NCBI GenBank assembly: GCA_021821705.1
Contig: JAKACE010000089.1
Location: 1 to 7,241 of the forward strand
DNA: 7,241 bases
Direction of reading: 5' to 3'
From: Actinomycetes bacterium
GTDB lineage: Bacteria; Actinomycetota; Acidimicrobiia; Acidimicrobiales; Palsa-688
Shown here one piece after another: positions 1,434-7,110 of this stretch (within the stretch, counting starts at the first letter, position 1; each line of letters begins with the position of its first letter). The notes under the pieces were generated by a model. The model was given only the letters and a program-made list of their open reading frames with translations. It was not told the DNA's origin and did no database searches. The position numbers and the translations under genes were made by a program.

Positions 1434-1628
1434 ATGGTGAAGATCGAGCCGAAGACGCTCCATGTCGCCAGCTGGCGAGAAGGCGACCTTGCCGTGGACG
1501 CATGGTGCACCGACCCGGCCGAAGCGGCCGGGCTGGCGAGAGAGCACGCCGGGACGGTCGAGCACCGCCGGGTGCCCTGGCCCGTCCTCGTCCCCGAGGC
1601 GCCGGCCGGTGTGGAGACGCCGTGGTGA
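1434..1628 (+). CDS. Hypothetical small protein
   Basis: 64 residues, family not recognised. The ATG lies one base after the preceding stop, with AAGGAG at 1418-1423, 10 nt upstream. The N-terminal half (KTLHVASWREGDLAVDAWCTDP) has alternating hydrophobics consistent with two or three beta strands, then a helix with Ala/Glu (AEAAGLAREH) and a Pro-rich tail. I checked it as a possible HicB antitoxin for the HicA-like gene downstream because of the strand-helix layout. It lacks the usual HicB motifs, and two genes lie between them. No membrane segment or signal peptide is present. Confidence 0.65.
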   Translation: MVKIEPKTLHVASWREGDLAVDAWCTDPAEAAGLAREHAGTVEHRRVPWPVLVPEAPAGVETPW

Positions 1629-1807
1629 CCCTGGAGGCTGGAGCGAAGGTGCGCACGGCCAGCACCGTACGGCCGCCCCGGTACGCCGATAAGACCGGCA
1701 AGGTCGTGGAGGTGCGCCACCTCGAAGGTGGCGCCGTTGAGGTCGGTGTGAAGATCGGGGCTGGCATCTCCTGGTTCACGCCCGCCGAGCTGGAGGCCCT
1801 GCGATGA
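1625..1807 (+). CDS. Small SH3/KOW-like barrel protein
   Basis: About 60 residues. The sequence has the layout of a small SH3-like or KOW-type barrel: a strand with a K-V-R-T pattern, then PPRYADKTGKVVEV with the Gly-Lys turn, EGGAVEVGVKIG, and a final aromatic strand and acidic helix (WFTPAELEAL). Short proteins of this pattern are common in actinobacterial phages and mobile elements, from memory of the family style; their function is unknown, with RNA, DNA or protein binding proposed for the fold. GGAG at 1613-1616 fits either of two adjacent GTG codons (1622 or 1625). I chose 1625 because it gives the GTGA overlap seen elsewhere in this chain. The stop overlaps the next start (ATGA). Confidence 0.7.
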   Translation: MTLEAGAKVRTASTVRPPRYADKTGKVVEVRHLEGGAVEVGVKIGAGISWFTPAELEALR

Positions 1808-1935
1808 GCGCCGTCGAGCTGGTGGTCGTCGGCCTCACTGCCGTAGCCGTCGGGTTTTTCGGCGTGCTGCTGGCCTTTTGGAGCTGGGGCGATAAAGACG
1901 ACAAGCCAGAGGAAGAAAAAGAGGACGTGAGTTGA
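1804..1935 (+). CDS. 43-residue single-pass membrane protein
   Basis: A very short membrane protein. Residues 5-29 form one hydrophobic helix (Val/Leu/Ala/Phe with two Trp at its end), followed by a strongly charged tail of Asp, Lys and Glu (residues 30-43). By the positive-inside rule the orientation is ambiguous. The ATG overlaps the preceding stop (ATGA), with GGAGG at 1792-1796 giving 7 nt spacing, which is strong support that this tiny gene is translated. It sits directly before the HicA-like gene with a 4-nt TTGA overlap. Possible roles include a small phage membrane protein or a regulator of a membrane complex; there is no recognised family. Confidence 0.65.
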   Translation: MSAVELVVVGLTAVAVGFFGVLLAFWSWGDKDDKPEEEKEDVS

Positions 1936-2141
1936 GCGCCGGCAAAGACCTCAGAGAGCTGGCCCGCCGGCTCGAACGCCAGGGCTGGCGCCGGGAGCAG
2001 CGTCACGGCGGCCACGTCAAGCTCTGGCCACCCCATGGTGGCCGCCCGCTGGTGCTGAGCAACTCTCCCAGCCGGCCCAAGGCGTTGCTGTTGGCCAAAA
2101 GGGACGTGCGCCGGCTCACGGGGCGGGGACAGCCGAGGTGA
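1932..2141 (+). CDS. HicA-like mRNA interferase toxin, orphan
   Basis: 69 residues, the usual length for HicA (about 60-80). HicA proteins have a double-stranded-RNA-binding-like fold and cleave mRNA using a histidine after a G-S/G-x motif. Here an N-terminal helix (KDLRELARRLERQGW) is followed by the signature HGGHVKLW, with His28 as the likely catalytic residue, then PPHGGRPLVL and a C-terminal helix ending in RRLTG. The start is TTG, overlapping the upstream stop, with AGAGGA about 6 nt before it. The GHVKLWPP-x-GGRP-x-VL version is a style I associate with actinobacterial phages. No HicB antitoxin lies on either side: a 43-residue membrane protein precedes it and the Cas1 gene follows. 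It may have been recruited for another RNA-related role. Confidence 0.75.
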   Translation: MSAGKDLRELARRLERQGWRREQRHGGHVKLWPPHGGRPLVLSNSPSRPKALLLAKRDVRRLTGRGQPR

Positions 2142-2230: not shown

Positions 2231-3961
2231 ATGGACGTGATCGAAGTTAGCGCCGTCGCCGGCATGCCCGACGAGGACGTGGCCGCCATCGTTGCCGACC
2301 AGGACGCCGCCTTCGCCGAGCGAGGCCTGTCCGGTGGCGTGGCCGTGGTGGACGGCATGGGGGCCTCGGTGCTCGTGCGCCTGGGCCACCTCTCGGTCAC
2401 CGACGGCCTGGGCGAGACGAGGCGGGAGCGGCGCTTCCCCCGGGCGGCGCCCCGGGGCGACCGGTTGCGTACCCTCGTGGTGCTCTCGCAGCACGGCATG
2501 GTGAGCCTCGACGCCCTGGCCTGGTGCCGGGCCACCGGGACCGAGGTCGTGGGCATCGACGACCGGGAGGGGGAACCCCTGTGGGCAACCCTCCCGACCG
2601 GCCCACGAGACGGCCGTATTACCCGTGCGCTCGCCCTGGCCGGTGCCACCGGGGCCCATCCTCTCGGGCTCGCCATCGGCGCCTACGTCCTCGGCTCCAA
2701 GGTCCGGGGACAAGCGGGCCTGCTGCGACGTCGCCTTACCCCCGGACGGGAGGGGCCAGGCGCCAGCATGCCCACGTGGGAGCTGCTGGAGGAGCTGGCC
2801 GGCGCCATCGAGGGGGCACGGGGCATCGACGACATGAGGTTGCTCGAAGCCCAGGCCGCGGCCCTCTACTTCGGGGCGTGGACGAAGGCGCCGGGCACCG
2901 CCCCACGGTTCGCCCCCCGGGAGCGGGAGAGGGTGCCGGCGTCCTGGCTCACCTTCGACGGCAGGCGGTCGGCCATCGGTGCGGGGCGCTCCAACCGCCG
3001 GGCCACCCACCCGGCCAATGCCGTCCTCAACTACCTGAACGCCCTCGTCCGGGCACGGGCGACCATGGTGTGCCACGCCCTCGGGCTTGCCCCCGAGCTG
3101 GCCGTCGTGCACGCCGACATGGCCCGCCGTGACAGTCTCGCCTGCGACCTCCAAGAGCCCGTGCGGCCCGCCGTCGAGGAGCACGTGCTCGACCTGTTCG
3201 AGGCCCGGACGTTCCGGCGCCCCGACTTCCTGGAAGGCCCCGACGGCGAGGTGCGGCTCGGCATGGGCCTTCGCCAAGAGCTGGCCGCCACGAGCCCGAG
3301 GTGGGGAGCCTTGGTGGCCCCTGTCGCCGAGCACGTCCGGGGCATGCTCGCCCAGGCCGTCCGGGAAGGTGGTACGTCCCGCCTCGTCACCCTGGGTGCG
3401 GCCCCCATATCGGGTGCCAGGCGCAAGAAGGCGGCCGGCGAGGTCGTGGCCCGCAAGCGGCTCATGGCGGACCTGAGGGGACGCAAGGCGCCACCCGGAC
3501 GGCAACCCTCCCTGTGGAGCTGCCCAAGTTGTGGGGGCGAGGTCACCAACCCCCGGCGAGTGCGCTGCGATGCCTGCATGTCCGCCGACCCTCGCCAGAG
3601 GCCCGGGCTTCGCCGGTCCAGGGCACAAGCCATATCTGCCCGGCGCCAAGCCGAAGCGGGCTGGTCGAGGAAGCACCACCCCGGCATCGTCGTGGACCGC
3701 AGATGGGCCGTGGAGGAGCTGCGGCCGGCACTGGCCGAAGTGAAGCTCTCCGCCATCATCGAGGCGACCGGCGTCGCCAAGTCCACCGCCTCGGGCTGGC
3801 GCTCGGGGCGCCACCTCCCGCACCCGATGCATTGGCAAGCCCTCACCGAGCTGGCCGGTGTCCCACTGCCTGCCGGCGTGACCCTGGTCGAGGGCACCGT
3901 GGTGAGCACGGCCGACCATGCCGAAGATGAAGACCGGGGGGAGGTGACAGTCGATGCGTGA
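2231..3961 (+). CDS. cas1: Solitary Cas1 integrase with C-terminal zinc ribbon and helix-turn-helix
   Basis: 576 residues against about 300-340 for ordinary Cas1. Cas1 is a metal-dependent DNA integrase; in CRISPR systems it works with Cas2 to insert spacers, and in casposons a Cas1 homologue inserts the whole element. Domains: a 38-residue leader; the N-terminal beta domain from VVDGMG (39-44); then the alpha-helical catalytic domain with Glu206 (LLEAQAAALYF), NAVLNYLNALV, His294 (VVHADMARRD) and Asp306 (SLACDLQEPVRP). So the Glu/His/Asp set is intact. The tail has a zinc ribbon (Cys431/434 and Cys446/449), a basic stretch, and a helix-turn-helix around 503-545 (LSAIIEATGVAKSTASGW), likely for DNA binding. 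No cas2, effector gene or array lies nearby. ATG 2231 is chosen over GTG 2138 because of GC3 and the GAGG site. The 3' end overlaps the next gene by 8 nt. Solo Cas1 and casposase are the alternatives; the Cas1 family call itself is firm. Confidence 0.92.
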   Translation: MDVIEVSAVAGMPDEDVAAIVADQDAAFAERGLSGGVAVVDGMGASVLVRLGHLSVTDGLGETRRERRFPRAAPRGDRLRTLVVLSQHGMVSLDALAWCRATGTEVVGIDDREGEPLWATLPTGPRDGRITRALALAGATGAHPLGLAIGAYVLGSKVRGQAGLLRRRLTPGREGPGASMPTWELLEELAGAIEGARGIDDMRLLEAQAAALYFGAWTKAPGTAPRFAPRERERVPASWLTFDGRRSAIGAGRSNRRATHPANAVLNYLNALVRARATMVCHALGLAPELAVVHADMARRDSLACDLQEPVRPAVEEHVLDLFEARTFRRPDFLEGPDGEVRLGMGLRQELAATSPRWGALVAPVAEHVRGMLAQAVREGGTSRLVTLGAAPISGARRKKAAGEVVARKRLMADLRGRKAPPGRQPSLWSCPSCGGEVTNPRRVRCDACMSADPRQRPGLRRSRAQAISARRQAEAGWSRKHHPGIVVDRRWAVEELRPALAEVKLSAIIEATGVAKSTASGWRSGRHLPHPMHWQALTELAGVPLPAGVTLVEGTVVSTADHAEDEDRGEVTVDA

Positions 3962-4190
3962 CCGCCGTTGGGCCGGGGCAGGCGCCCTGGGACTGCTCGT
4001 CGGGCTCATCCTGGGCGAGCGCCGGGGACGTCGGCACCCCCACCGCCTGCTCCTGGGCGTCGCCTACGCCGCCCTCGGGGCCGCCCTGGGATTGCTCCTC
4101 CTGGTGGCCGTCTGGCCCTGGGTGCTCGCCGCCGTGGGGGTCGTGGCCGTCGCCCTGGTGGTACGCCACGCCCGGCGGCGCAAGACCTGA
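3954..4190 (+). CDS. Small multi-pass membrane protein
   Basis: 78 residues. The ATG lies inside the last codons of the Cas1 gene (8-nt overlap) and has an excellent ribosome binding site, GGAGGTGA at 3940-3947, 6 nt upstream, so the two are translated together. After an Arg-rich start it has a short Gly/Leu-rich hydrophobic segment (about 7-21), an Arg/His-rich loop, and a long hydrophobic region (about 32-70) that can hold two helices, then a basic tail (RHARRRKT). Basic ends and loop suggest cytoplasmic termini. I do not recognise a family. Close coupling to an integrase gene is unusual for a membrane protein and may mean membrane tethering of a complex, or simply gene packing in the element. 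Confidence 0.75.
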   Translation: MRDRRWAGAGALGLLVGLILGERRGRRHPHRLLLGVAYAALGAALGLLLLVAVWPWVLAAVGVVAVALVVRHARRRKT

Positions 4191-4291: not shown

Positions 4292-4744
4292 GTGCACCTG
4301 GCGACCTTCCGGCCTGTTCCCGACGCTGGTAGTTGCCCCACTTACGGGGTTGCCCCCTCGACCGCCTACGTGAAACTGGGGTGCCGTTGCGCCTCCTGCT
4401 CGACCTGGCAGAAGGACCGTCTCGCCAGGCAACGGGGGAGCACCCCCCTGGCGGTTGTCCCCCGGGCGGTTGCCTCCCTGCCGGCCCCAACCTCGCCCAC
4501 CTACGCCCCCCGTCCGGGCGCACCACCTCCGGGGCGCCCCCCGTCACCTGTCCCGGCGCTCCCGGTCCCCCCTATGGCGGTGCCGGTCATGGTCGGTGGG
4601 TGGGGGAGGTGGAGGTGCGGCCACGAGGGGGAGATCGGCTGGGCGGTCACCAGCACCACACCAGGGCGGTTGCCCTGTCCCGTGTGCGGGAAGCCCGGGC
4701 TCCTCCTGCAACGACACCTGGGGGAGTGGCACCCGTTGGGCTAA
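4292..4744 (+). CDS. Cys-rich protein with GCRCxxC module, Pro-rich linker and C-terminal zinc finger
   Basis: 150 residues from a GTG, the first possible start after an in-frame stop at 4268. The N-terminal part holds Cys15 and the module TAYVKLGCRCASC (Cys31, Cys33, Cys36) followed by a basic helix (WQKDRLARQR). A very Pro-rich linker spans about 50-98. The C-terminal part has Cys109-x-His111 and Cys129-Pro-Val-Cys132, a second likely zinc site (WRCGHEGEIGW...CPVCGKPGLL). The GCRCxxC module with a following basic helix is a recurrent small motif in actinobacterial phage and host proteins, function not established. The gene downstream of the minus-strand neighbour (from 5445) carries the same module. 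The stop overlaps the convergent minus-strand stop. GC-rich third positions support coding; the start is the least certain point. Confidence 0.6.
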   Translation: MHLATFRPVPDAGSCPTYGVAPSTAYVKLGCRCASCSTWQKDRLARQRGSTPLAVVPRAVASLPAPTSPTYAPRPGAPPPGRPPSPVPALPVPPMAVPVMVGGWGRWRCGHEGEIGWAVTSTTPGRLPCPVCGKPGLLLQRHLGEWHPLG

Positions 4745-5349
4745 AAAGCCTCGTCTGCCCCGTAGTCCCGGCTGTCGCGGCGGTTGGGCCAGGAGGCGTC
4801 CGCCCGACGGTAGCTGGCCCTGATCGGGTGCACCACGCCGTCCTCGGTGAAGTACTGCACGTGGGCATTGCGGTCTACCTCGTGGTAGACGGCCGGGTTG
4901 CGCCGGCTCGCGAATGCGTGCACCCGCGTGCCGTGGTCTTCGGGGCGCCCCCTCCTGAGGAACCCGAGCGGGTCACGGCCGCCGTAGCGGGCGGTTTGAG
5001 GGGCCCTGCCCCGCCGGACGGCCCTGGCGGCGTCGATGCCCCGGTTGAGCGCCAGCCATTCCGTCACCGGGAGGCCCATCGACTCCATCTCGTCGGGGCT
5101 GGCCCCGCCGGGACTGAACCAGTTTTCTCGTAGACGGGCCTGCTCGTCCTTGGAGAGCCCGTCGAACCAGTCGTACTCGCCACTGTGCGCCCGGCGGTGC
5201 TCGTGGGTGCCCCAACCGGTGCGGGCGCTCTTGGCCCGAGGGGGAGGGGCCAGCTTGCCCTTGAACGCCACCGCCGCCGCCTCCATCGCACCCTCGTAGG
5301 CTCGCTCGGCTTCGGCCGCCTCGGCTCGTTGCTCGGGTGTGTAGGCCAA
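4741..5349 (-). CDS. Hypothetical protein, only minus-strand gene in the window
   Basis: 202 residues, no recognised family. It starts at TTG (5349-5347) with a very strong Shine-Dalgarno AAAGGAGG (5360-5353 on the minus strand), although only 3 nt separate it from the TTG. Residues 1-32 form an Ala/Glu-rich helix (PEQRAEAAEAERAYEGAMEAAA), then a basic Pro-rich patch, then HEHRRAHSGEYDWFDGLSKD and LRENWFSPGGASPDEMESMG, and a basic helix around VRRGR. The C-terminal third is rich in His, Arg, Asp and aromatics (YHEVDRNAHVQYFTEDG) and ends acidic. No signal peptide or membrane segment is visible. The many His/Asp/Glu residues could allow metal binding, but I see no defined nuclease motif. It converges on the gene ending at 4744 and diverges from the operon starting at 5445, with which it probably shares a control region. 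Confidence 0.75.
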   Translation of the reverse strand: MAYTPEQRAEAAEAERAYEGAMEAAAVAFKGKLAPPPRAKSARTGWGTHEHRRAHSGEYDWFDGLSKDEQARLRENWFSPGGASPDEMESMGLPVTEWLALNRGIDAARAVRRGRAPQTARYGGRDPLGFLRRGRPEDHGTRVHAFASRRNPAVYHEVDRNAHVQYFTEDGVVHPIRASYRRADASWPNRRDSRDYGADEAF

Positions 5350-5444: not shown

Positions 5445-6071
5445 ATGGAGCACGGCAAGCGCTCGACGTACGTAGCTGGCTGTCGCTGTGAGGCGTGCAG
5501 GGCGGCCGAAGCCGAGTACCAGCGCAAGCACCGCCTGGCCGGCCGGAAGACCGAGGACGAGGAGGTCGTCGCCGAGCCCGACCACACCCACGAGCTGCCG
5601 GACGGCACCACGGCTTCGCACACCCACGAGAGCGACGGCGAGGGCCACGACCACGGCTTGGTGGGCCTCCCGGGCGGCGGCGAGGTCGAGGTCACCTGCC
5701 CGGGCTGCGGTGCGGTCTTCGAGCCGGGCCAGCCGCTCGCCGACCCGCTGTTGCACGAGCACCGGGCCAAGGGCGAGCTGACCGGCTACCACTCGCACAA
5801 GGACGGCGACGAGCCCCACACCCACAGGACGGCCCCCAAGCCGACGGCCAAGGCCCCCGAGACGAAGGAGCCGGAGCGCAAAGAGGCGAAGGAGCCGGAG
5901 CGCAAGGAGCCCGAGCGTAAGCCCGCGGCGAAGGTCGAGCCGAAGAAGCCCGAGCCGCCCAAGGTGCCACCTCAGACAGATGAGCCCGAGCCGGTGCGCA
6001 AGAAGGCTCCGGTCTACGTGAGCGCCTTCCGGTCCCACCGCCTGGCGAGCAGAGAGGGAGGTAAGAAGTGA
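5445..6071 (+). CDS. His/Cys-rich putative zinc protein with charged repeat tail
   Basis: 208 residues from ATG 5445; an in-frame GTG at 5436 would add three residues, but ATG 5445 fits both the -10 box and the AAGG spacing, and gives the expected MEHGKRSTY beginning. The module STYVAGCRCEAC (Cys13, 15, 18) plus a basic helix (AAEAEYQRKHR) matches that of the gene at 4292. Residues about 46-71 are rich in HTH, HDH and Asp/Glu. Cys85-x2-Cys88 with His104-x-His106 could form a C2H2-type zinc site. Another His cluster follows (YHSHKDGDEPHTH). Residues about 125-190 are Lys/Glu/Pro-rich with KEPERK repeats, probably extended. There is no signal peptide. It heads an operon of small membrane proteins (GTGA overlap with the next), so it may be a metal-binding scaffold or chaperone for that apparatus. 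No family recognised. Confidence 0.8.
   Translation: MEHGKRSTYVAGCRCEACRAAEAEYQRKHRLAGRKTEDEEVVAEPDHTHELPDGTTASHTHESDGEGHDHGLVGLPGGGEVEVTCPGCGAVFEPGQPLADPLLHEHRAKGELTGYHSHKDGDEPHTHRTAPKPTAKAPETKEPERKEAKEPERKEPERKPAAKVEPKKPEPPKVPPQTDEPEPVRKKAPVYVSAFRSHRLASREGGKK
5864..5921 (+). repeat. Short in-frame repeats encoding KEPERK
   Basis: The 18-nt unit GAAGGAGCCGGAGCGCAA occurs exactly at 5864-5881 and again at 5888-5905 (period 24). A diverged third copy follows at once (AAGGAGCCCGAGCGTAAG, 5904-5921). In frame these give K-E-P-E-R-K blocks at residues 141-159. The near identity at DNA level suggests recent slippage or duplication, and copy number may vary between relatives. Confidence 0.75.
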
Positions 6072-6382
6072 GCGGGAAGAGCTCCCTGGCGGTGTTCGCC
6101 TTGCTGGCGTTGATCGTCGCCCATCTTTGGCAGCAGGAGACCTCGACCAAGGCGGGCGTGGTCGAGTACCTGGTGAAGAACTGGAAGGTCCTCGGGCTGG
6201 AACTGGTCGGGGTGGTGGCCGTCGCCTTCGTCGCCGAGGTGTCCGACGCCGCCGCCACCATCGTGCTCGTCCTCGCCGCCGGCCTGTGGCTGCTCTTCGC
6301 CGTCAACGTATGGGGCGCCCACAAGGCTGCACCCCAGAAGAGCCCGGCCAAGCCCCCCGCCTCTCACCCGAAGGCGGCTTGA
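6068..6382 (+). CDS. Membrane protein with three predicted helices
   Basis: 104 residues. The GTG start overlaps the preceding stop (GTGA) and has AGGGAGG at 6055-6061, 6 nt upstream. Hydrophobic segments lie at about residues 7-21, 41-58 and 62-83. Between the first two is a short polar loop with Glu/Lys, and the tail (84-104) is Lys/Pro/Ala-rich and basic, so probably cytoplasmic. The layout (one helix, a short amphipathic stretch, a helical hairpin) recalls small pore or channel-like subunits of secretion, conjugation or phage machines, including holins, but there is no family signature I can name. It is the first of four small membrane genes in the operon. Confidence 0.8.
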   Translation: MSGKSSLAVFALLALIVAHLWQQETSTKAGVVEYLVKNWKVLGLELVGVVAVAFVAEVSDAAATIVLVLAAGLWLLFAVNVWGAHKAAPQKSPAKPPASHPKAA

Positions 6383-6595
6383 GTGGGCGACTTCGAGAAG
6401 ATCGTGTTGTTCGTCATGGTGGGCGCCATCGTCGTGTTGCTCGTGACCAAGGCCAACTTCCTGTTCGGCGCTCTCGGCTCCGCCGGGGGCGGTGTGGACG
6501 CCTGGCTCAACTCCATGGCCGGCAACAGGCCGACGGCCCAGGCGCCGACGTTGCAGAGCAAGTATTTCCCCCCGGCACAGAAGAGGGCGGCCTAG
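6383..6595 (+). CDS. Small single-pass membrane protein
   Basis: 70 residues from GTG 6383, directly after the previous stop, with AAGG at 6371-6374. A short acidic start (GDFEK) precedes one strong hydrophobic helix at residues 7-22, then KANFLFGALGSAGGGVDAWLNSMAG, a Gly/Ala/aromatic segment that could be a second, weaker membrane-associated helix, and a basic tail. The size and layout (short N-terminus, one long helix, Gly-rich second part) resemble small coat or pilin-like membrane proteins, but also many unrelated small proteins; I do not assign a function. It sits between membrane genes on both sides with no intergenic space. Confidence 0.75.
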   Translation: MGDFEKIVLFVMVGAIVVLLVTKANFLFGALGSAGGGVDAWLNSMAGNRPTAQAPTLQSKYFPPAQKRAA

Positions 6596-6802
6596 GTGCG
6601 TGGTCTCGCCTTCGGGCTCTTCATCGTCGGCATCGTCCTCGTCGTGGCCGGCATCATCTGTTGGAGGCGCAGGAAGGCCCCGGAGGCCCAGGAAGACGGC
6701 GGCGCAGGGGGAGGCACCCCCCGGCCCCCCGGCCCCAGCCCGAGAAGCCCGCAGGAGGAGCCGGCAGAGCGCCAGCTCGTCTCGACAGGAGGTACACGTT
6801 GA
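6596..6802 (+). CDS. Small bitopic membrane protein with Pro-rich tail
   Basis: 68 residues from GTG 6596, immediately after the upstream stop. Residues 4-24 form a hydrophobic helix ending in CWRRRK, a basic stop-transfer patch that suggests an outside N-terminus and a cytoplasmic C-terminus. The rest is Gly, Pro and Glu-rich (GGGTPRPPGPSPRSPQEEP) and probably disordered. No family recognised. The stop overlaps the next start by 4 nt (TTGA). Together with its neighbours it forms a set of single-helix proteins with disordered tails, as would be expected of subunits assembling around a membrane complex. Confidence 0.7.
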   Translation: MRGLAFGLFIVGIVLVVAGIICWRRRKAPEAQEDGGAGGGTPRPPGPSPRSPQEEPAERQLVSTGGTR

Positions 6803-7110
6803 ACCCCTTCGGCCTGTTGGTCATCGCCCTGGGCGCCTTGGTCTTCTACATCGGCCTCGACGGCGAGAAGAAGACCAGCGCCGCCAAGAAGAAGGCCGCC
6901 TCCGTCCGTACCAAGGTCCCCGGCACCAGCCTGCCGAGCGGCGGCCCTCCCATGCCGGCCGTGAAAGGCAAGTACACCTCGCCGGCCCTCCCGGGCTTCC
7001 AGGTCTACGGGGGCGAGCCGGGCACCATCAACACCGGCATCCCCCCTGCCGGCTACACGGTCGTCGGCCCTCCTCCTCCTCCTGTCAAGAAGAGGCGGAA
7101 GCTCCCATGA
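6799..7110 (+). CDS. Small membrane-anchored protein with Pro/Lys-rich tail
   Basis: 103 residues from TTG 6799, supported by the perfect AGGAGGT at 6787-6793, 5 nt upstream, and by the 4-nt overlap with the preceding stop. The N-terminus is one hydrophobic helix (residues 4-19, FGLLVIALGALVFYIGL), followed by a Lys/Ala-rich basic stretch, then a Gly/Pro/Tyr-rich region (KYTSPALPGFQVYGGEPG), and an end with five prolines and the basic KKRRK. A longer open frame extends upstream, but that part lies over other genes. No family recognised. It directly precedes the probable lytic transglycosylase gene (ATGA overlap), so both likely act at the envelope. Confidence 0.75.
   Translation: MNPFGLLVIALGALVFYIGLDGEKKTSAAKKKAASVRTKVPGTSLPSGGPPMPAVKGKYTSPALPGFQVYGGEPGTINTGIPPAGYTVVGPPPPPVKKRRKLP

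Follow-up and report, generated by a model that had tools for sequence, protein, structure and literature searches.

The cas1 gene of a short actinobacterial contig very likely encodes the integrase by which a casposon-related mobile element inserts into DNA, and not an enzyme of spacer acquisition for clustered regularly interspaced short palindromic repeats (CRISPR). The window, by which we mean the whole stretch of DNA analysed here, is the complete 7,241-bp contig G000:C66 (GenBank JAKACE010000089.1) of a 2.70-Mb metagenome-assembled genome (MAG) from the Acidimicrobiales, 61% complete. The CRISPR spacer integrase has been proposed to descend from casposases. An earlier sequence-only reading of the window had suggested that its Cas1 serves a mobile element or phage rather than spacer acquisition, and the mobile-element part of this suggestion is supported by the tree position of the protein and by the polymerases and element ends of its relatives. 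On these grounds, and from its likeness to the casposase of M. mazei (PDB entry 6opm), the window Cas1 is very probably a casposase with the architecture known from family 3 casposons.

The window Cas1 matches Pfam Cas_Cas1 with E = 8.7e-28 and its best PADLOC Cas1 model with 5.9e-30; an alternative, longer reading of the open reading frame (ORF) would start at GTG 2138. The protein was aligned with 32 relatives, giving 33 rows of proteins at least 31% identical. The Glu206/His294/Asp306 set, previously described as intact, is present in 33/33 aligned sequences, the window included, and so is E309, the fourth active-site residue, which is a glutamate as in the 6opm alignment. The extra tail, said to hold CxxC-x11-CxxC followed by a helix-turn-helix (HTH), was found as described: C431 and C434 are kept in 33/33 rows and C446 and C449 each in 32/33, and the whole pattern of two CxxC pairs separated by 8-20 residues occurs in 31/33 sequences, with the spacing CxxC-x11-CxxC in the window. 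Judged from the full-length matches and the aligned proteins, the conservation of the tail is far beyond chance. The AlphaFold2 model (mean predicted local distance difference test score 85.9) has a confident Cas1 fold and helices at residues 490-542, with block means of 88-97 for residues 491-550 and 84-86 around the cysteines (431-450). Family evidence for the HTH in the window protein is weak, comprising a PHROG transcriptional regulator (E = 0.0074) and NCBIfam carphisopro against the tail (0.0015, below its cut-off); the relative P0008 carries a precomputed PF13560, which we take to be HTH_31. Among the matches listed, full-length ones extend to residues 535-544 in loci of Acidobacteria, Acidimicrobiales, Thermomicrobiales and Eremiobacterota.

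Structural comparison indicated a casposase as the nearest known fold. Foldseek ranked three chains of the M. mazei casposase-DNA complex 6opm at the top of its PDB matches (E 2e-15 to 6e-14; 17-18% identity in the fold alignment), with CRISPR Cas1s after them, from 6e-13. The family profile, searched against PDB sequences, also ranked 6opm first (E 6.5e-38).

A quick IQ-TREE phylogeny was built from 76 rows, namely 50 family Cas1s, two PDB stretches (6opm and 4n06) and 24 array-linked CRISPR Cas1s, i.e., Cas1s with repeat arrays in their loci. The 50 family rows, including the window, form one group (support 98, starred), the 6opm casposase is its sister (88, not starred; branch 1.82), and 23/24 array-linked CRISPR Cas1s fall on the opposite side of the tree (99, starred). 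A Cas1 tree, the check that had been proposed for the gene, thus places it with the M. mazei casposase. Within the family, the window Cas1 pairs with P0002 and then with P0003 (both 100, starred), inside a 10-row set (99, starred) that is nested in a 24-row set (87) together with the casposon L002 and loci L135, L136, L137, L139 and L141; several forks are open and the branch of L139 is long. Since rows bearing a casposon polymerase surround the 24-row set, the window lineage would most simply descend from polymerase-bearing casposons. Proteins P0002-P0010 are closer to the window Cas1 than the order-level matches. The order-level searches, with a best identity of 43-45% in one of them, yielded no closer relative, and neither did 32 genomes of the window's bacterial family, six of which, its own MAG counted, contain a family Cas1.

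The claim that the window offers no CRISPR partner held: of the cas2 partner and array that make up an adaptation module, no Cas2 was found in the 61% complete MAG and no array with three or more repeats in the window, where no Rfam family was matched either. That the gene encodes an orphan Cas1 of CRISPR adaptation, or a decayed and functionless Cas1-solo, is extremely improbable; although a missing Cas2 is weak evidence in a MAG of this completeness, the tree position, the intact active site, the conserved tail and the signs of mobility in relatives all argue against it. Cas1-solo group 1, with its incomplete active site, is ruled out by the complete active site of the window Cas1.

The neighbours of Cas1s with the same tail, whose comparison had also been proposed, are characteristic of casposons. 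ORF clustering of the first 54 family loci revealed a divergent operon upstream of Cas1, with proteins of about 1,000 amino acids (aa) in 32 loci, about 190 aa in 29 and about 165 aa in 26. The largest is a family B DNA polymerase: Pfam DNA_pol_B_2 was matched in L004 (7e-5, below the cut-off) and not in the L020 copy, and polymerase motifs, among them the motif A Asp, K-x3-N-x3-YG and DTD, are invariant in ten divergent aligned copies; the exonuclease motif is altered in one copy (L115). The 165-aa protein is HNH nuclease-like by its His/Cys pattern, of which the first His is changed in L119, and no Pfam nuclease match was obtained among the copies scanned. Weak matches (24 and 23 bits) link the C-termini of the L034 and L010 polymerases to the HTH portion of the Cas1 tail profile, and an HTH at this place was reported for family 2 casposons by Krupovic et al. 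(PMC4046053). In a census of 67 family Cas1 ORFs in 65 loci, 40 had at least 6 kb upstream, and a casposon-type polymerase, counted as an ORF of at least 300 aa at any place in the locus, accompanies 30 of these 40.

A second element appears to reside in the same MAG. On contig C177 (L146, 1-4842), one ORF occupies the position of the HTH gene and another is HNH-like; the beginning of a casposon polymerase ORF runs off the contig, and a divergent ORF stands where the gene preceding Cas1 is normally found. The contig is probably part of a second, canonical-looking casposon. An SSB-like (single-stranded DNA-binding protein) stretch was noticed near the start of its polymerase ORF. The idea that the window and C177 are halves of one element was rejected, because the pre-Cas1 gene of C177 faces its own contig end and other genes precede the window Cas1. 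Possibly the window belongs to a canonical casposon of its own, a narrower version of the reading preferred here, with the divergent polymerase operon rearranged or beyond the 7.2-kb contig, as the polymerases of most relatives with enough sequence and the HTH-like, HNH-like and polymerase genes on C177 would allow. However, the first divergent gene stands 0.8-1.5 kb upstream of Cas1 among the loci listed, whereas the 2.2 kb upstream of the window Cas1 is filled by same-strand small genes common to L139 and L136, and C177, with its pre-Cas1 gene running towards its own end, is probably another element.

Element ends are among the signs that the relatives are mobile. In 28 loci with enough flank, inverted repeats with a directly adjoining outside duplication were searched for. 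Among 60 random cross-locus pairs used as control, the best score was 24, except for one pair at 81 (unexamined); 17 loci scored above 24, and 14 of these have both an inverted repeat and a duplication (L002, L007, L011, L015, L018, L021, L022, L027, L028, L032, L034, L112, L113 and L119). The terminal repeats and target duplications that had been suggested as a check were therefore obtained in 14/28 loci. These elements measure 9.9-17.1 kb, and their longest exact duplication is 14 bp in 12/14, 15 bp in L119 and 16 bp in L021. Many of the 14 share a terminus like GGG(A/G)TAGGnGATAG; L113, from the same class as the window, has a perfect 32-bp inverted repeat, and L002, from the same order, has a weak 13-nt repeat with one mismatch that starts like the termini of other elements. 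L004, whose 36-bp repeat bears the usual terminus but is not flanked by a duplication, was left out of the count, and inverted repeats of 227 bp in L025 and 30 bp in L118 were rejected as element ends for want of a duplication.

Target sites recur among these elements. GTCAA stands at an edge in 10/14 duplications, as compared with 0.15% of random 14-mers; the motif was chosen after the duplications had been seen, L021 was trimmed to a 14-mer starting with GTCAA (9/13 without it), and the cases are not independent because five share one target. Five elements (L011, L018, L027, L028 and L032) lie directly upstream of the valyl-tRNA synthetase gene (valS), and the duplication of L022 overlaps the 3' end of tRNA-Ser.

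If it works like the M. mazei enzyme, the window casposase would bind the terminal inverted repeats of its element and join their 3' ends to staggered positions in the target, and integration would leave a 14-bp target duplication. The zinc-ribbon/HTH tail probably helps to choose the ends or the target. By the same analogy the window enzyme is expected to be active, and its own element would have terminal repeats and duplications like those of the relatives.

The features of the window are collected in Table 1.

Table 1. Predicted features of the 7,241-bp window (both coordinates inclusive).
Feature	Position	Strand	Basis or remark
UvrD-like helicase C-terminal piece, cut by contig end	3..413	+	Pfam UvrD_C 5.6e-20
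Small ORF common to L136 element	1434..1628	+	80% over 50 aa; DNA 81% over 1442-1631
Small ORF, membrane-like by eye, common to L139	1804..1935	+	55% over 40 aa
HicA-like small ORF directly upstream of Cas1	1932..2141	+	Pfam HicA_toxin 3.9e-5, below cut-off
Cas1 (putative casposase) gene, 576 aa	2231..3961	+	ATG at 2231, stop ending 3961; N-terminal and catalytic Cas1 domains before the tail; Pfam, alignment, model, tree
Cas1 fold, about residues 33-383, with E206/H294/D306/E309	2327..3379	+	33/33 rows; profile aligned to 6opm residues 19-305
CxxC-x11-CxxC (C431, C434, C446, C449), probable zinc ribbon	3521..3577	+	Cysteine conservation; metal binding predicted
C-terminal HTH, residues 490-542	3698..3856	+	Model helices, weak family matches, conserved PH..HW motif
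Small ORF overlapping Cas1 end, membrane-like by eye	3954..4190	+	Similar-looking L139 ORF at same place
Cysteine-containing ORF	4292..4744	+	36% over 133 aa with L160; 44% over 36 aa with L139
202-aa ORF	4741..5349	-	Middle matches L139 polymerase residues 718-833 (41% over 123 aa, E 3e-19)
Four small ORFs, membrane-like by eye, then truncated lytic transglycosylase-like start (by eye)	6068..7110	+	

The genes around the window Cas1 match those of three loci from the same bacterial family, L139, L136 and L160, and because of these matches the window element probably belongs to their branch; from the shared genes it would stand with L139 in particular. DNA matches of 76-84% to L139 cover window positions 1792-1901, 1921-2072 and 2144-2248 and are collinear, L139 having about 1.4 kb of additional sequence. 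The HicA-like ORF is 78% identical to its L139 copy over 63 aa (DNA 84% over 1921-2072). The small ORF overlapping the Cas1 end gave no significant alignment with its L139 counterpart. None of the four small ORFs downstream matched a family, and the first of them is weakly similar to L160 (31% over 72 aa, E 0.008). A Pfam scan of ten window ORFs found no other recombinase or transposase, the rest of the element lying beyond the contig. The terminus motif of the relatives has two matches with three mismatches in the window, where about one is expected; the contig is short.

Direct signs of movement in the window's branch come from L136, for one end only. The L136 element stops at the 3' end of tRNA-Val(CAC); in genome G984, of the same genus, different DNA comes after this tRNA locus, and in G1026 different DNA borders the initial 145 bp of the element (97%). 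A second end was not found in L136.

No casposon polymerase of the usual kind was seen in the L139/L136/L160 branch; the polymerase of L139 is of the tectivirus type instead. This 16,430-bp contig encodes a polymerase 41% identical to those of Streptomyces tectiviruses (WheeHeim, E 2e-141), with weaker matches to Toil and Bee17, an SSB resembling that of WheeHeim, and an ORF with a 41-aa match to the casposon HTH-like gene. Its contig ends form an exact 14-bp inverted repeat; in 21 other loci, some of which are slices, the corresponding repeat is no longer than 7. In the window's MAG no tectivirus-type polymerase was found, the sole match being the 202-aa ORF; the stretch of the L139 polymerase that this ORF matches is the one where the WheeHeim polymerase did not align.

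These data can be read in more than one way. We tentatively consider an Acidimicrobiales casposon branch into which a tectivirus-type polymerase was swapped, that is, tRNA-targeting linear replicons midway between transposons and viruses that carry zinc-ribbon/HTH casposases. If replication genes were exchanged in this manner, a polymerase of the kind seen in L139 might, perhaps, be expected for the window as well. A tectivirus-like provirus or linear virus that integrates through Cas1, similar to elements of Streptomyces noursei and S. albulus, is a more doubtful explanation. It would account for the several genes that L139 shares with the window, for its polymerase and SSB, for the inverted repeat at the ends of its 16.4-kb contig, and for the small membrane-like ORFs and likely transglycosylase start seen by eye in the window, and Cas1 in tectivirus-like elements has a precedent (PMC5894146). 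However, tblastn at 1e-3 with tectiviral ATPases and capsid proteins (WheeHeim, Toil and Bee17) gave no match in L139, the window or the other loci searched, a comparison that covered sequences and not folds; of the hallmarks of Tectiviridae, L139 has the polymerase but, at this level, neither packaging ATPase nor double-jelly-roll capsid protein. Moreover, the window Cas1 has no match in a phage collection at 1e-5, scans of viral contigs for Cas1 and the neighbour genes gave none, and the L139 polymerase found no useful match in the viral contigs scanned. The phage alternative of the sequence-only reading is thus hinted at by the L139 polymerase and left without a capsid or packaging gene.

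A conjugative or plasmid-like element with a casposase, its small membrane genes and transglycosylase forming a secretion apparatus, is quite improbable. The transglycosylase-like start after small membrane-like ORFs (by eye) would fit a secretion operon too, and the window Cas1 has one weak plasmid match, but neither a relaxase nor a secretion ATPase was found among the ten window ORFs (Pfam) or the ORFs of L139 and L136 that were scanned, some ORFs lying outside the scan.

Several observations weigh against the assignment as a casposon integrase. The Archaeoglobus Cas1 4n06 is nearly equal to 6opm in family-profile score (8e-37 vs 6.5e-38), and sequence scores alone therefore separate casposase from CRISPR Cas1 little. 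In the tree, the sole casposase reference is a long-branched fragment whose grouping has a support of 88, and the CRISPR row L108 pairs with 4n06 beside the casposase side. For ten of the 40 family Cas1 ORFs with enough upstream sequence, the locus lacks a casposon-type polymerase; several of these Cas1s are broken and two are the window-like L136 and L139. Half of the loci searched for ends (14/28) yielded no repeat-plus-duplication pair, and the 7.2-kb window itself contains no polymerase, HNH-like gene or terminal repeat.

Among known systems, family 3 casposons are the closest in architecture. The Cas1 of AceAut-C1 was reported to have a zinc-binding domain and an HTH, both C-terminal (Krupovic et al., 2014; PMC4046053). 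Among the matches listed for the window Cas1, no named family 3 member appeared. The window shares with this family a bacterial host and both C-terminal domains, and its relatives have polymerase, HNH-like and HTH-like genes; it differs from the published description in that its clade occurs in Actinomycetota, Acidobacteriota and some others and in that the window contig has no polymerase. The M. mazei casposons were reported to have a 14-bp duplication, 4 bp of which overlap tRNA-Leu, and to need the HTH tail for integration (PMC6977970). The M. mazei casposase is the best profile and fold match of the window Cas1 and likewise has an HTH tail, and 14-bp duplications and tRNA 3'-end targets recur in the relatives; in contrast, it is archaeal, has the low fold-alignment identity given above, and zinc is not mentioned in the accessible part of that article.

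It was also reported that Toil-like proviruses of Streptomyces carry Cas1 (Yutin et al., PMC5894146). Like the elements of S. noursei and S. albulus, L139 combines a casposon-type Cas1 with a tectivirus-type polymerase; unlike L139 and the window, in which none was matched, the Streptomyces elements have a recognised capsid protein, and the Cas1 of StrAlb-C1 is described without extra domains (PMC4046053). The proposed family 5 casposases from hot springs mostly have no DNA polymerase nearby, are linked with Archaea and branch near the Cas1 of subtype I-A, according to PMC9755687; by this description they resemble the window in the lack of a nearby polymerase, which in the latter applies to a 7.2-kb contig.

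The window Cas1 is not a new kind of protein, because AceAut-C1 has both domains and Streptomyces Toil-like proviruses carry Cas1. In the examined portion of the openly accessible literature on casposons with acidobacteria, actinobacteria and tectiviruses, a scope that excludes subscription journals and preprints, no description was found of the clade, its spread in Acidobacteriota and Actinomycetota, its target rules or the polymerase exchange in L139, where no capsid was recognised. The likeliest novelty is a casposon branch with exchanged replication genes, in which no capsid gene was found. According to a 2023 review (PMC9939771), biochemical data exist only for the casposases of A. boonei, M. 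mazei and N. koreensis. Through a large bacterial clade that combines clear ends and 14-bp duplications with an apparent GTCAA motif and repeated use of the valS-upstream sequence, direct tests of what the tail does and how targets are chosen become feasible in bacteria, and elements like that of the window would show casposon integrases passing between transposons and virus-like replicons.

Some further observations concern the relatives. Truncated or split family Cas1 ORFs with no polymerase match in the locus were seen in L035, L042, L044, L045 and L046 (Edaphobacter and other acidobacteria), as expected for decaying element copies. In Saccharopolyspora, L036 9890-11407 (S. spinosa) has a family Cas1 without a tail match and L066 9836-11405 (S. 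subtropica) one split over two ORFs, neither with a polymerase match in the locus; an assignment of both to the tectivirus type was rejected, as they had no match to tectivirus proteins. Tail-only ORFs without a Cas1 domain occur at L113 186-674, L003 3699-4205, L028 16934-18568 and L041 7639-8124, that of L113 just outside the left end of the element, which suggests separate regulators or relics. Finally, a CRISPR mini-array of six repeats (13106-13468; 32-nt repeat GTCGCGCCCTACGCGGGCGCGTGAATTGAAAC) with five spacers of 33-36 nt was observed in L007; its spacers had no convincing match outside the array in the examined loci (best other 14 nt; no cas-gene search was made there), and it lies inside the casposon (369-13784) of an Acidobacteriota MAG, near the right inverted repeat.

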